Assembly: GCA_016935335.1 (NCBI GenBank)
Contig: JAFGRE010000031.1
Location: forward strand, 1-57,144
Length of the DNA: 57,144 nt
Source: Deltaproteobacteria bacterium
Lineage (GTDB): Bacteria > Desulfobacterota > WTBG01 > JAGOGO01
Reading direction: 5' to 3'
Below are positions 11,082-16,488 of the stretch, piece after piece (positions within the stretch are counted from its first letter, which is position 1; every line of letters begins with the position of its first letter). Both the position numbers and the translations under genes were made by a program. The notes below the pieces were generated by a model. That model did not search any database. It saw only the letters and a list, made by a program, of their open reading frames with translations, and was not told the origin of the DNA.

Positions 11082-14000
11082 ATGCAATGCAATGAGAAGA
11101 CCAGCGAATCTTTAGAGCAAGAGGTGGTTCGTTTACAGAACCGCATTGCTGAATTGGAGGAGAAAGAAAAGTTTTATCAAATAGCGGAGAAACAATATCG
11201 AGACCTGGTGGAAAGCACCCTCGTAGGAATGTTCAAGACCACCCTTGCAGGAGATATCCTTTATGCCAATCAGGCGCTGGTGGAAATGTTCGGGTTTGAA
11301 TCTCCCGAGGAATTTGGAACCCAGCTGGTTTTTGCAAGATACAAGAGGGCTGAGGATAGAGAGGAATTTCTTGCGTTCATAAAAACCAAGGGTGTTGTAA
11401 ACAACTTTGAGGTTGAACTTATTACGAAAACTGGAAGGCCGAAGCCCGTGCTGATTAACGCGGTTCTTGCTGATAACATTATATCGGGGATGATGATAGA
11501 CATCACCGACCATAAGCGGGCAGAGGAGGCGCTTCGAAACAGTGAGGAAGAACTGCGACACATTGTTGAAGGGAGCCCGATACCGACATTCGTTATCGAT
11601 ACCGATCACATGGTCAAACACTGGAACAAGGCCTGTGAGAAGCTCACGGGTCTTTCTGCGGAGGAGATGGTGGAAACCAAGCAGCAGTGGAAAGCATTTT
11701 CTCCAACAGAGAGGTCGATGCTTGCTGACTTGATAGTGGATGGCCTTCCCGAGGAAGAGATAATAAAGCGTTCCGGGAGGGCGTATAGAAGATCCGCCAT
11801 TATTGACGGAGCTTATGAGGCTGAAGATTTTGTTCATGGTTTGGGGGAAAATGGTAGATGGGTTTCTTTCAGCGCAGCACCGCTTAAGGATGTTGCGGGT
11901 ACTATCACGGGAGCGATAGAGATCTTGCAGGATGTCACGGAGCGAAAACATGCGACAAAGGCGTTACAACACAGTGAACAGATGTTTAGAACTTTGGCGG
12001 AGACCGCCCCTTTTGGCATTTCAATTATGAATTCAGAACAGCGGTTTGAATATTTCAATCCGAAATTTACCGAAATATTCGGATATACATTCGAAGATGT
12101 TACGGATAATGCGACGTGGTTTAAGAAAGCATACCCCGACAAAGAATATCGAGAAAACGTGATTACCATCTGGAAGGAAGACCTGGGAGATGAACCGGAG
12201 GTGGGCGCAAAAAGGGAAAGGATTTATAACGTCAGATGTAAAGACGGAAGGGACAGGGTCATTCATTTTAGGGGAATCGCCTTAGAGGATGGAAGGCATT
12301 TTGTTACCTATGAAGATATTACAATTCGGGCACAAGCTGAAAGGGACCTTAAAGAAAGCGAACTGAAATATCGCGCCCTTTTTGAGTCGACGCCGGACGC
12401 AATTATGTTGACCGATAGCGGCGGCTTCCTAGATTGTAATAAGGCAACGCTTGAAATGTTCGGTTGTTCAGCGAAAGAGGAGTTCACCATAAAACACCCC
12501 GGCGAATTATCTCCCCCGATCCAGCCCGATGGGGAGGAGTCGATTTTTGCTGCCAACAAGCACATTAAGGAAGCTCTCGCAAAGGGATTCTGTTTTTTTG
12601 AGTGGGTGCATAGACGGATTGACGGGGGGGACTTCCCGGCTGAGGTATTGCTCAGTACGCTTGAATTAAGGGGGCGGATGGTTTTACAGGCGTTAGTTCG
12701 CGATATTACCGACCGGAAGCGAGCAGAAGAGGCCGTTAGAAGAGCTCAAGACGAACTCGAACAGCGGGTTAGGGAACGAACCGCGGAACTGACAGATGTT
12801 AATCAACGATTACAGCAGGAGGTTGAAGAACGAAAACGGGCTGAGATATCTCTTCAACAGAGTGAAGAAAGATACCGGTATATTTTTGATAATGCGTTGG
12901 TTTCACTTCGGGAGGAAGATATCTCCGAGCTTAGGTCTGCCCTTGACGAACTGCGGAGGAAAGGGGTGCGGAATTTTCGAGAGTACTTGGACGAACATCC
13001 GGAGTTTATAAGCCGGGCGATAAAAATGATAAAAATTACCGACACCAATGATGCTGCGATGAGATTATATGAAGCGGATGATAGAGGGCAATTCTCTGAG
13101 AGGGAAAAAATGTTTGTGCCGGGAGAACTTTCCGGGTTTCACGAATCGCTTATCGCTCTTGCAGAGGGGCAGACCTCGTTTGAAGGCGAATCGGTGAACC
13201 AGACGTTTCGGGGAAAGCCCATCAACATTTTGTTGAAGATCGCGTTTCCTTCTAAAAAATCACGATTCAACAAAGCGTTAGTGAGCGTAGTGGATATCAC
13301 TGAACGGAAGCGGGCAGAGGAAGCCTTGCAAGAGAGTGAAAATAGATTCTCAACCTTTATGGATCATTTGCCGGGGATTGTCTGCATGCGAGATGAAGCT
13401 GGGCGGGTTACATATCTTAATAGATACATGGGGGATACATTCGGAGAACAGGCAAGCACATTGGCGGAGAGGGTTACCGGGGAATGGTCCGATTTTTCAA
13501 GAGAAAACATACGGGAAAGTACTGAAGCTGTGTTCGATAAGAACGAGAAGTCTCACTTCTATCGGACGTTCAGGTTCCCGGTAGTGAGAAAAGGGAAGCC
13601 GACGATTTACGGAGGCATTGGGATTGACATAACGAAGCAAGTGGAGGCGGAAGAGGCGCTTCGGAAAGCGCATGGGGATTTAGAAGAAACAGTAAAGAGA
13701 CGCACAGCCGAATTGGTTACAATTAACGAGCAATTGAAACAGGAAGTCGTAGCGCACAAGCACACGGGCAAGGCGCTTGAAGAACAAACCTTGCTCAACG
13801 AAATGATTCTCCAGACTACCATGAACGGATTGTTTATTAAAGACCTGGACGGTAATATTTTAAAAGCAAATCCGGCGGCTTCTATGATTACCGGCTATAG
13901 GCAGGAAGAATTGATCAAGATGAACATCCTCGACATAGAACCGCTGGACTCATTAGCGGCCTTTAAGCAGCGCAGCCAGCTTGCTGTCGAAAAAGGGTTT

Positions 14001-14603
14001 AATCGTTTTGAAGCAAAATCGCGGCACAAGGATGACCACATCGCGGATGTAGAAGTGAGTCAGAATTTTCTAAAAATCGGGGAGCAGGAATTACTTATCT
14101 CTTTTTTCAATGATATCACGAAAAGAAAGCAGGCGGAGCGGGTACTTAAAGAGCGGGAAGAAGAACTGGAGGTAAAGAGCAGTAACCTTGAGGAAGTAAA
14201 TACTGCCTTGATGGTCTTATTGCGTAGGAGGGATGAAGACAAAAGAGAACTGGAGGATAAGGTCTTGGTAAATATGAAGGAATTGGCGCTACCGTATATT
14301 GAGAAGATAGGACAAGGCAATCTGGATGCCAGGCAAAGGTCTTATCTGGAAATCCTGGAATCAAACCTGGATGATATTATTTCACCTTTTGCGCGGACTT
14401 TGTCCTCTAAATACCTTAATCTTACACCTACGGAAATTCAGGTGGCCAATCTTATTAAACAAGGGAAAACCAGCAAGGAAATAGCGGAATTGTGGAATCT
14501 CTCCAGTAGGACGGTTGAATTCCATAGGGACAACATCCGGAGGAAACTCCAGATAAAAAATAGAAAGACAAACCTCAGATCCTACCTGCTCTCCCTGCAA
14601 TGA
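11082..14603 (+). CDS. Multi-PAS sensor protein with C-terminal LuxR-type HTH
   Basis: The 1173-residue protein starts with a short coiled coil and then carries about seven PAS or PAS-like units (roughly 38-150, 155-290, 297-425, 430-555, 605-760, 765-880, 925-1045). They are linked by repeated [11 protein letters not shown]-type helices and by two RTAEL coiled coils. No histidine kinase core is present. The last 65 residues are a LuxR/FixJ-type DNA-binding domain ([20 protein letters not shown], then [19 protein letters not shown]). It should be a soluble one-component regulator sensing small ligands, redox state or oxygen; the signal is unknown. Its PAS-linker-HTH end is closely repeated in the gene at 15000-16277. 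A long-stem hairpin lies downstream at 14777-14847. Confidence 0.85.
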
Positions 14604-14999
14604 TAATACTGGTTTTAGGCAAGCATTATACAGGTAATTATTTGTGATTGATTTTTTGGGAAAAGCTGATATTTTAAAAAAAGCAGATGCGATTTTCGCG
14701 CTGCCTTCCTCTAACCTCTCTAACTCAGCATGGAGGGAAATGTAAAGCGACTATTTCGGACGTGAAAATTTCATAGGTCTTGCACTCTTTTTTACCTTCC
14801 TATATCATCTATATACTCCAACTAATGAAGAGTGCAAGACTTTTTTTGTGTTGGCGTTGGGTGGTTGACTTCGCTTCCACCGAAATTGCTGAGCCAGGAA
14901 TCTCTCTCTTCGTCTTTTTAATTGTAGTAAGATAATACAAAGTTGGTATCGCGTAAGAATCCCAATCATTGACGTGACATATCTTTGGAGAAGAGCCTG
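14604..14999. other. Intergenic region between the two PAS-LuxR genes (396 bp)
   Basis: It contains the hairpin/terminator at 14777-14847. Upstream of it is an A/T-rich stretch with a possible weak promoter (TTGATT, then TATTTT about 16 bases later, near 14647-14675). Downstream of the hairpin no promoter for the second PAS gene is clear. No coding frame with an SD was seen. Confidence 0.5.
14777..14847 (+). ncRNA. Long-stem, pyrimidine-loop hairpin with T tract (candidate 3'-UTR sRNA or terminator), copy 1
   Basis: The arms GTCTTGCACTCTT (14777-14789) and AAGAGTGCAAGAC (14828-14840) are perfectly complementary over 13 bp and are followed by seven T. The 38-nt loop is almost free of G and contains ACCTTCC and ACTCC, which resemble anti-Shine-Dalgarno sequence. 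A second hairpin at 16371-16439 has the same plan and related arms. At minimum this is the intrinsic terminator of the large PAS gene. A regulatory small RNA released from the 3' end is inference. Confidence 0.55.
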
Positions 15000-16277
15000 A
15001 TGAATGACAAGAAGAAAACCAAGGGCCTTCTGGAGCAAGAATTGGCTAATCCCCGTGATCGGACTGCTCAGTTGGAGAAGTCCATCAAAGGGTATTGGCA
15101 ATCTGAGAAGCAGTTTAGGGATTTTGTTGAAAATGCTCCTGTGGGTATTTACAGAAGTAACTTCAAAGGCGACATCCTTTACGCAAATCGGGCGTTGATG
15201 GCTATGTTTGAATTCAATTCGCCGCAGGAACTTATTTCTCAGGGCGTCGTGGCGCGATACAAGAATCGAAAAGATCGGGAAAGGCTTATTCAGATTGTAA
15301 AGGAAAAGGGATCTGTTGATAATTTTGAAGTTGAAGTTCTAACCAAAATCGGAAAAACCAAATGCGCAATACTCAGCGCAGTGCCTGAGGGAGATATGAT
15401 ATGGGGAATGATGATTGACATTACCGAGCGGAAGCGGGCGGAGGATGCGCTGCAAGAGGAGACTTTGCGGAACGAATTGATTCTTAAAACCACTATGCAT
15501 GGGTTTTTTATAACGGATATGGAAGGAAAAATTCTTAAGGCAAACCCGACAGCGGCTTTGATTTCCGGTTATTTGCAGGATGAATTGATCGGAATGCATG
15601 TTCTTGATCTTGACCCGTTGTTGTCTCTGGAATCGTTTCAGGGGCACCGGAAGCTATCCATGAAAATCGGATGCCACCGGTTTGAAACGAAATGCCGTCG
15701 AAAAGATGGACGTATTATAGACGTGGAAGTCAGTCAAAACTTTCTCGAGATCGGACGGCAGAAGAGTTTCTTCTCTTTTTTTACGGACATTACACAACGA
15801 AAACAGGCTGAGAAGACATTGAGAGAGCGGGAAAAAGAACTCGAGGCAAAACGCAGCAGCCTCGAGGAAGTGAATGTTGCCCTAAAGGTGTTGCTGAAAA
15901 GAAGGGATGAGGATAAGGCTGACCTTGAGGAAAAGGTGATGGTAAATCTGAAGGAACTTATAGGACCCTACCTGCAGAAATTAAGGGAGAGTGGTTTGAA
16001 TGCGAAGCAGCGGGCCTATTTTGAGGTGCTGGAGTCCAATATTAACAGTATTATTTCCCCATTTGCACGCAGTTTAGGATCCAAATACTTGGGCCTTACC
16101 CCTAAAGAAATTTTGGTTGCCAATCTTATCAGGCAAGGAAAGACGGCGAAGGAGATAGCGGAGCTGTGGAACATTTCTCGGAGGACCGTTGAGTCTCACC
16201 GGGAAAATATGCGTCGGAAACTTCGCCTCAAGAAGCAGAAGAAGAACCTGCGGTCTTACCTTTTATCTCTAAAATAA
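15000..16277 (+). CDS. PAS-LuxR regulator, shorter paralogue of the upstream gene
   Basis: The 425-residue protein has an N-terminal coiled coil, two PAS domains (about 30-145 and 155-275), a charged coiled coil of about 275-330, and a LuxR-type HTH in the last 65 residues (LTPKEILVANLIRQGKTAKE, then WNISRRTVESHRENMRRKL). Its first PAS matches PAS1 and its second PAS plus tail match the last PAS plus tail of the 1173-residue neighbour, so it looks like a tandem paralogue lacking the middle sensors. The ATG at 15000 is preferred because GGAGAAG lies at 14987-14993; an in-frame TTG at 14985 has no SD. It should regulate transcription; signal and targets are unknown. Confidence 0.85.
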   Translation: MNDKKKTKGLLEQELANPRDRTAQLEKSIKGYWQSEKQFRDFVENAPVGIYRSNFKGDILYANRALMAMFEFNSPQELISQGVVARYKNRKDRERLIQIVKEKGSVDNFEVEVLTKIGKTKCAILSAVPEGDMIWGMMIDITERKRAEDALQEETLRNELILKTTMHGFFITDMEGKILKANPTAALISGYLQDELIGMHVLDLDPLLSLESFQGHRKLSMKIGCHRFETKCRRKDGRIIDVEVSQNFLEIGRQKSFFSFFTDITQRKQAEKTLREREKELEAKRSSLEEVNVALKVLLKRRDEDKADLEEKVMVNLKELIGPYLQKLRESGLNAKQRAYFEVLESNINSIISPFARSLGSKYLGLTPKEILVANLIRQGKTAKEIAELWNISRRTVESHRENMRRKLRLKKQKKNLRSYLLSLK

Positions 16278-16318
16278 TACGCAGTTTATATCCGTATTGT
16301 GCTAGAATTTATTTGGTA

Positions 16319-16347
16319 TTGATATTTAAGAAAAAGAGATCTATACT
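16319..16347 (+). promoter_or_regulatory. Sigma70 promoter directly before the second hairpin
   Basis: TTGATA (16319-16324) and TATACT (16342-16347) are separated by exactly 17 bases. The predicted start is near 16354, about 17 bases before the hairpin at 16371. No open reading frame follows, so the promoter would drive a transcript of roughly 85 nt. Confidence 0.6.
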
Positions 16348-16353
16348 ATTAAT

Positions 16354-16439
16354 AAATAGTTGACGCATTTAAGCCTTACACTCGTTTTCAATTCTCTTCT
16401 CCTCCATTTACTCCATTAAACGGGTGTAAGGCTTTTTTT
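16354..16439 (+). ncRNA. Candidate small RNA: long-stem, pyrimidine-loop hairpin, copy 2
   Basis: The arms at 16371-16387 and 16418-16434 pair over 17 bp with one G-U and run into a T tract to 16439. The 30-nt loop lacks G and contains TCTCCTCC and ACTCC. Compared with the hairpin at 14777-14847, the arms differ by compensatory changes (for example TTGCAC/GTGCAA against TTACAC/GTGTAA), which argues that the stem is under selection. A good promoter stands just upstream. The start near 16354 is estimated from the -10 box. It could still be only the terminator of the PAS gene. Confidence 0.55.
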
Positions 16440-16465: not shown

Positions 16466-16488
16466 GCCCCTGGGAAAGGGGCTTTTTT
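16466..16488 (+). terminator. Intrinsic terminator
   Basis: GCCCC and GGGGC arms enclose a seven-base loop and are followed by six T on the plus strand. It would back up termination after the hairpin at 16371-16439. Confidence 0.65.

Follow-up and report, generated by a model that had tools for sequence, protein, structure and literature searches.

The PAS-LuxR locus and its two hairpins

The window, i.e. the whole 57,144-nt stretch of DNA analysed, contains two genes for PAS-LuxR regulators on the plus strand, each followed by a long-stemmed hairpin, here termed W1 and W2. The features of this region are listed below.

11082..14603, plus strand: PAS-LuxR gene 1, 1173 aa, ending ~170 nt before W1 (context only)
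14641..14690, plus strand: stretch resembling the promoter region of W2 (TTGTGATTG..CTGATATTTTAAAAAAAGCAGAT), with a local alignment that beats 100 of 100 shuffles
14775..14847, plus strand: hairpin W1, with a stem of ~15 bp (AGGTCTTGCACTCTT / AAGAGTGCAAGACTT), a 39-nt G-free loop and a T7 tract
14985..16277, plus strand: PAS-LuxR gene 2, 430 aa, probably starting with the ATG at 15000, ending 93 nt before W2 (context only)
16319..16347, plus strand: promoter-like site of sigma-70 type, TTGATA-17-TATACT (consensus match only)
16371..16439, plus strand: hairpin W2, with a 17-bp stem (AAGCCTTACACTCGTTT / AAACGGGTGTAAGGCTT), a 30-nt G-free loop and a T7 tract
16466..16482, plus strand: short terminator of ordinary type directly 3' of W2, with a 6-bp stem, a 5-nt loop and a T tract

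Both stems are near-perfect and have TTTTTTT directly 3'. Folding energies are -22.3 kcal/mol for W1 (z -8.3) and -23.3 kcal/mol for W2 (z -9.4), and in neither case did any of 200 dinucleotide shuffles reach that energy. The positions and plan given in the preliminary description (long stem, large loop nearly without G, T tract) are borne out, as are its loop motifs, ACTCC in both loops, CTTCC in W1 and CTCCTCC in W2. The paired substitutions between the arms to which it drew attention (TTGCAC/GTGCAA in W1, TTACAC/GTGTAA in W2) are present, together with two further paired differences (GTC/GAC vs GCC/GGC, and CTCTT/AAGAG vs CTCGT/ACGGG). In a 516-kb sample made up of stretches of the window's genome, 14 strong T-tailed hairpins were detected when loops of 3–48 nt were allowed, and a stem of at least 16 bp with a G-poor loop was found only in W1, W2 and one other member of the family described below. 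A looser hairpin scan of five block-shuffles of the window gave two matches. Downstream of W2, the short terminator at 16466..16482 places two terminators in succession.

The C-terminal 165 aa of PAS-LuxR gene 2 are 69% identical to gene 1 and the regions upstream of W1 and W2 are also alike, which suggests that gene and hairpin were probably duplicated in tandem, as a unit, at this locus. The stretch at 14641..14690 lies ~108 bp from W1 and lacks a good -10; it is likely to be a decayed or displaced copy of the W2 promoter region. Also upstream of W1, at 14700-14740, is a second G-free C/U stretch (CCTTCCTCTAACCTCTCTAACTC), with predicted pairing to a nearby SD-like sequence (GGAGGGAAATG). 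This stretch may belong to a longer W1 RNA or to a leader.

Members and distribution of the family

A covariance model of W1 and W2 (R1), run over 147 related genomes, gave two convincing new members, one in the window's own genome (G000:C109) and one in a different genus within its taxonomic family (G002:C118), where a second tandem copy is present 386 bp beyond the first. A five-sequence model (R2) added G001:C151 (E 3e-9), G000:C143 (E 1e-6) and G000:C15 (E 4e-6), and an eight-sequence model (R3) revealed a degenerate ninth member, G001:C258 (E 0.004), which has an upstream promoter-like block in common with C143. W1 and W2 score 68 and 75 bits with R2, and have E values of 2e-16 and 2e-18 with R3. 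Beyond W1 and W2 there are six clear members and the degenerate one; counted by genome, five members are in G000 (the window's genome, 2.8 Mb) and two each in G001 and G002. These are all three genomes of the window's taxonomic family examined, and are MAGs that are 76–91% complete. The three MAGs are incomplete and closely related, so that part of the sequence similarity is simply common descent.

Outside this taxonomic family, the covariance-model search covered 14 further genomes of the class and ~390 of the phylum, and found no clear members. With the exception of a hairpin designated L133, considered below, the weaker R1–R3 matches inspected in these genomes are either ordinary terminators with short loops or folds of low stability. 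Within the genomes sampled, the family appears to be confined to the taxonomic family of the window. A search with a rigid stem pattern gave no matches because the stems vary. Membership in any described Rfam family is ruled out, as a gathering-score search of the window against Rfam 15 found no matching family; a search with the W1/W2 region and the two-member region of G002, with E up to 5, returned chance-level matches only.

Genomic context

Members are found in diverse surroundings. The C109 member lies between pilZ and hisS, and the position upstream of hisS is common to C109 and G001:C151, which belong to two genera. Both G002:C118 copies lie between ftsH and recD2, the C143 member is near pyrE, the C15 member is near selB and a glutamine cyclotransferase gene, and the G001:C258 member converges with an HU-like gene. 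A PAS-LuxR gene adjoins only W1 and W2 (2/9 members), the other seven being elsewhere. No member was found downstream of PAS-LuxR homologues in 40 regions of other genomes, and a third PAS-LuxR paralogue of the window's own genome (G000:C154:5602-6096) is not accompanied by one. A general linkage to PAS-LuxR genes is therefore rejected. The preliminary description had proposed a small RNA family tied to a PAS-LuxR regulator, to be examined by a covariance-model search seeded with the two hairpins and by scoring that linkage. The RNA family stands, with further homologues, covariation, SD-complementary cores in the loops and upstream promoter-like sites, while the tie to the regulator does not. 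Some relatives have many copies of long PAS-LuxR regulators, with 11 each in G145 and G014.

For the most part, the two hairpins do not pair remarkably well with the translation starts of the two PAS-LuxR genes; among 375 genes, these starts rank 74 and 77 for W2, and 3 and 90 for W1. Autoregulation of PAS-LuxR gene 2 by W2 was considered on account of a 9-nt match, yet this pairing is not special against the 375 genes and the idea was rejected.

Stem conservation and strand

The consensus stem is AAGCCTTRCRCTCGT / ACGAGYGYAAGGCTT. In an alignment of eight members fitted to the structure, 97.5% of the cells in the 15 stem pairs are standard pairs, and in six of the 15 both partners have changed. 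None of 500 shuffles matched this covariation, and slid registers pair at 57% at most. A MAFFT alignment of five members agrees, with five pairs changed on both sides.

Judged by the T tract, the plus strand is clearly preferred in six of the nine members (W1, W2, C109, both C118 copies and C15, the last being read on the strand with the pyrimidine loop), with near balance between the strands in G001:C151, C143 and G001:C258. With the family model, the plus strand outscores the minus strand in all eight members aligned. A minus-strand reading, in which the loops would present SD-like GGAGG sequences, is rejected on the basis of the T tracts of the six members and the model scores.

Loops and predicted pairing with Shine–Dalgarno regions

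The nine loops are 22–39 nt long and 67–89% pyrimidine, with 0–3 G. CTCCT or CCTCC occurs in seven of them, against 2.3 expected from the loops' own composition (P about 7e-4), so that the potential for SD pairing which had been ascribed to the loops is upheld as an enrichment of SD-complementary cores. The same seven loops offer the single-stranded, C/U-rich complement to the SD that characterizes sRNAs with aSD or CU-rich loops. The core is missing from the W1 loop and from the degenerate G001:C258 loop. The C109 loop has 9 nt (CCTCCTTTC) in common with the 16S 3' tail in its general consensus form.

GGAGG-type SD sites are common among the genes of the window's genome. Duplex energies were better at translation starts than at internal sites for all five of the genome's own loops tested, but shuffled loops nearly match this preference (z from +0.6 to -2.3) and pyrimidine composition therefore explains most of it. 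The C109 RNA is predicted to form a duplex of -28.9 kcal/mol with the gene at L091:3364, which has the SD AAAGGAGGAGG. Taken as a prediction, pairing of the loop with Shine–Dalgarno regions would be the most likely action of these RNAs.

Promoter-like sites, RpoN and Hfq

Promoter-like sequences are present just upstream of five of the nine members, three of sigma-54 type and two of sigma-70 type. At C143, C15 and G001:C258, the distance from the sigma-54-like site to the hairpin is 52, 60 and 63 nt, respectively. In the genome sample, one position in 8600 scores as high; the motif had been spotted by eye in C143 and G001:C258 before scoring, and C15 is the one independent check. This suggests control of these three members by enhancer-binding proteins. 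The -24/-12 boxes of these sites are at L127:3676-3691, in L132 ~60 nt before the hairpin and, on the minus strand, in L128 ~60 nt before the hairpin. The -10 of the sigma-70-like site of W2 ends 23 nt upstream of the hairpin and predicts an RNA of ~85 nt, and the second sigma-70-like site, at G001:C151, reads CTGATT-17-TATAAT. No convincing nearby promoter was found for W1, C109 or the two G002:C118 copies.

The RpoN gene is present in G000 and G002 and was not found in G001, a 76%-complete MAG. Hfq (PF17209) was not found in G000, G001 or G002 (MAGs 76–91% complete); the same search was positive in five of 14 control genomes. Assignment to the Hfq-dependent sRNAs, which presupposes Hfq in the genome, thus finds no basis in these three genomes.

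Proposed function and alternatives

We consider it reasonably probable (about 65%) that W1 and W2 belong to a new, uncatalogued, multicopy family of some nine genes for short RNAs that act in trans, each composed largely of its terminator hairpin and pairing with the SD through the loop. Each gene would give rise to a short RNA, of about 70–110 nt where a promoter-like site is seen, consisting mostly of one hairpin. The long conserved stem and T tract would act as an intrinsic terminator and shield the 3' end, and the nearly G-free loop (22–39 nt) would remain single stranded, its C/U stretches mimicking the 16S anti-SD. By pairing with GGAGG-like SD sequences of target mRNAs, the loop could block ribosome entry without Hfq. 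A separate short transcript, action in trans and repression at the SD are what we infer from these sequences. Promoters and loop flanks differ among copies, and targets and conditions may therefore partly differ. A more specific scheme, to which we would give somewhat less than an even chance, is an Hfq-free family whose constant, covarying stem presents variable anti-SD loops, with copies wired to sigma-54 or sigma-70 promoters, such that loop drift and promoter choice diversify a common scaffold.

The hairpins could instead be simply intrinsic terminators of the genes upstream, alike through recent duplication or gene conversion and with loops that have no task. The stem and T tract do make a good terminator, W1 and W2 are each 3' of a gene on the same strand, and gene and hairpin are apparently duplicated in tandem. 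However, the other copies are either separated from the closest stop codon upstream by 295–680 nt or placed in unrelated surroundings, the stem sequence is common to non-homologous loci whose flanks mostly differ, and the other strong terminators of the 516-kb sample lack a large G-free loop. A separate ordinary terminator comes after W2, and the loops have kept an SD-complementary core. We hold this explanation to be unlikely. It is less likely still that W1 and W2 are processed from the 3' UTRs of the PAS-LuxR mRNAs and feed back on the regulators or their targets. They lie directly behind these genes, the start of PAS-LuxR gene 1 ranks third of 375 for the W1 loop, and the W2 loop contains a 9-nt complement (CTCTTCTCC) to the gene 2 SD (GGAGAAGAG), but gene 2 comes just 77th when genes are ranked by their overall pairing with W2, the linkage is absent elsewhere and, between gene 2 and W2, there is a promoter-like site.

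The presence of an inverted repeat in several copies at dispersed sites could also point to mobile or repeated DNA (a MITE, a REP-like element or an uptake-sequence terminator) and not to an RNA gene, and uptake sequences can form terminators. Against this, there are just five copies in 2.8 Mb, lone arms outside hairpins are near chance (six in 516 kb vs four in one shuffle), flanks are not generally shared, the loop has diverged while the stem covaries, and viral contigs have no match. Such an origin is very improbable, and the uptake-sequence and MITE ideas were rejected on the single arms, the mostly unrelated flanks and the lack of a viral match. Dispersed loci, a covarying stem, a loop that keeps its kind and differing promoters fit sRNA genes better than terminators or mobile DNA.

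Comparison with known sRNAs

The LhrC family of Listeria (LhrC1–5) resembles the putative RNAs described here in being multicopy, short and guanosine-poor and in having CU-rich sites, of which the terminator loop holds one. Loop pairing with SD regions has been shown for LhrC, its CU-rich sites bind the SD of a target mRNA, and Hfq is not required for lapB (PMC4132741). However, the LhrC RNAs have two stem loops, three CUCCC sites, a length of 111–114 nt and nearly identical copies (PMC4132741), whereas the present family has one hairpin and variable loops, with no sequence relation found in Rfam. Membership in LhrC is ruled out by the single hairpin, with one loop carrying C/U stretches, against two stem loops with three CUCCC-like sites.

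Hairpin loops that carry an anti-Shine–Dalgarno motif are also found in the alpha-r14/NfeR1 family, with the motif CCUCCUCCC (PMC10746234, PMC3927594), and SD-region pairing has been reported for NfeR1 (PMC10746234). The alpha-r14 RNAs, described from Rhizobiales, have three hairpins, an ultraconserved loop motif and variable stems (PMC10746234, PMC3927594). The present family is the reverse, with one hairpin, a conserved stem and a variable loop; its single hairpin and the absence of the exact 9-mer from all nine loops rule out membership. In RepG of Helicobacter pylori, a C/U-rich terminator loop likewise serves as the pairing part and suffices for regulation, but there is an additional 5' stem-loop in RepG, whose target is a G-repeat in an mRNA leader, not generally the SD (PMC8295292). 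The family belongs to none of LhrC, alpha-r14 and RepG by structure or sequence. The tandem sibling sRNAs NmsRA and NmsRB of Neisseria, about 70% identical and with anti-SD motifs, are comparable to W1/W2 and to the two G002:C118 copies, but differ in sequence and structure and are under stringent-response control (PMC5362039).

The sRNAs acting via anti-SD loops, a scattered group, would gain a family absent from Rfam, with a conservation pattern inverse to that of alpha-r14, the stem being fixed and the loop free. The family resides in genomes in which Hfq was not found, where little is known of how sRNAs pair, and its minimal one-hairpin design would make the division of labour between stem and loop easy to test. 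In another family of the same class, L133 (G012:C28:10546-10615) has an 18-bp stem, a 24-nt G-free C/U loop (TTTCCCCTCTTATTCCCTATCTCC) and a T tract. Its stem sequence is unrelated to the family stem, which makes it an analogue only, and the design may be broader than the sequence family, as part of a wider class of RNA.
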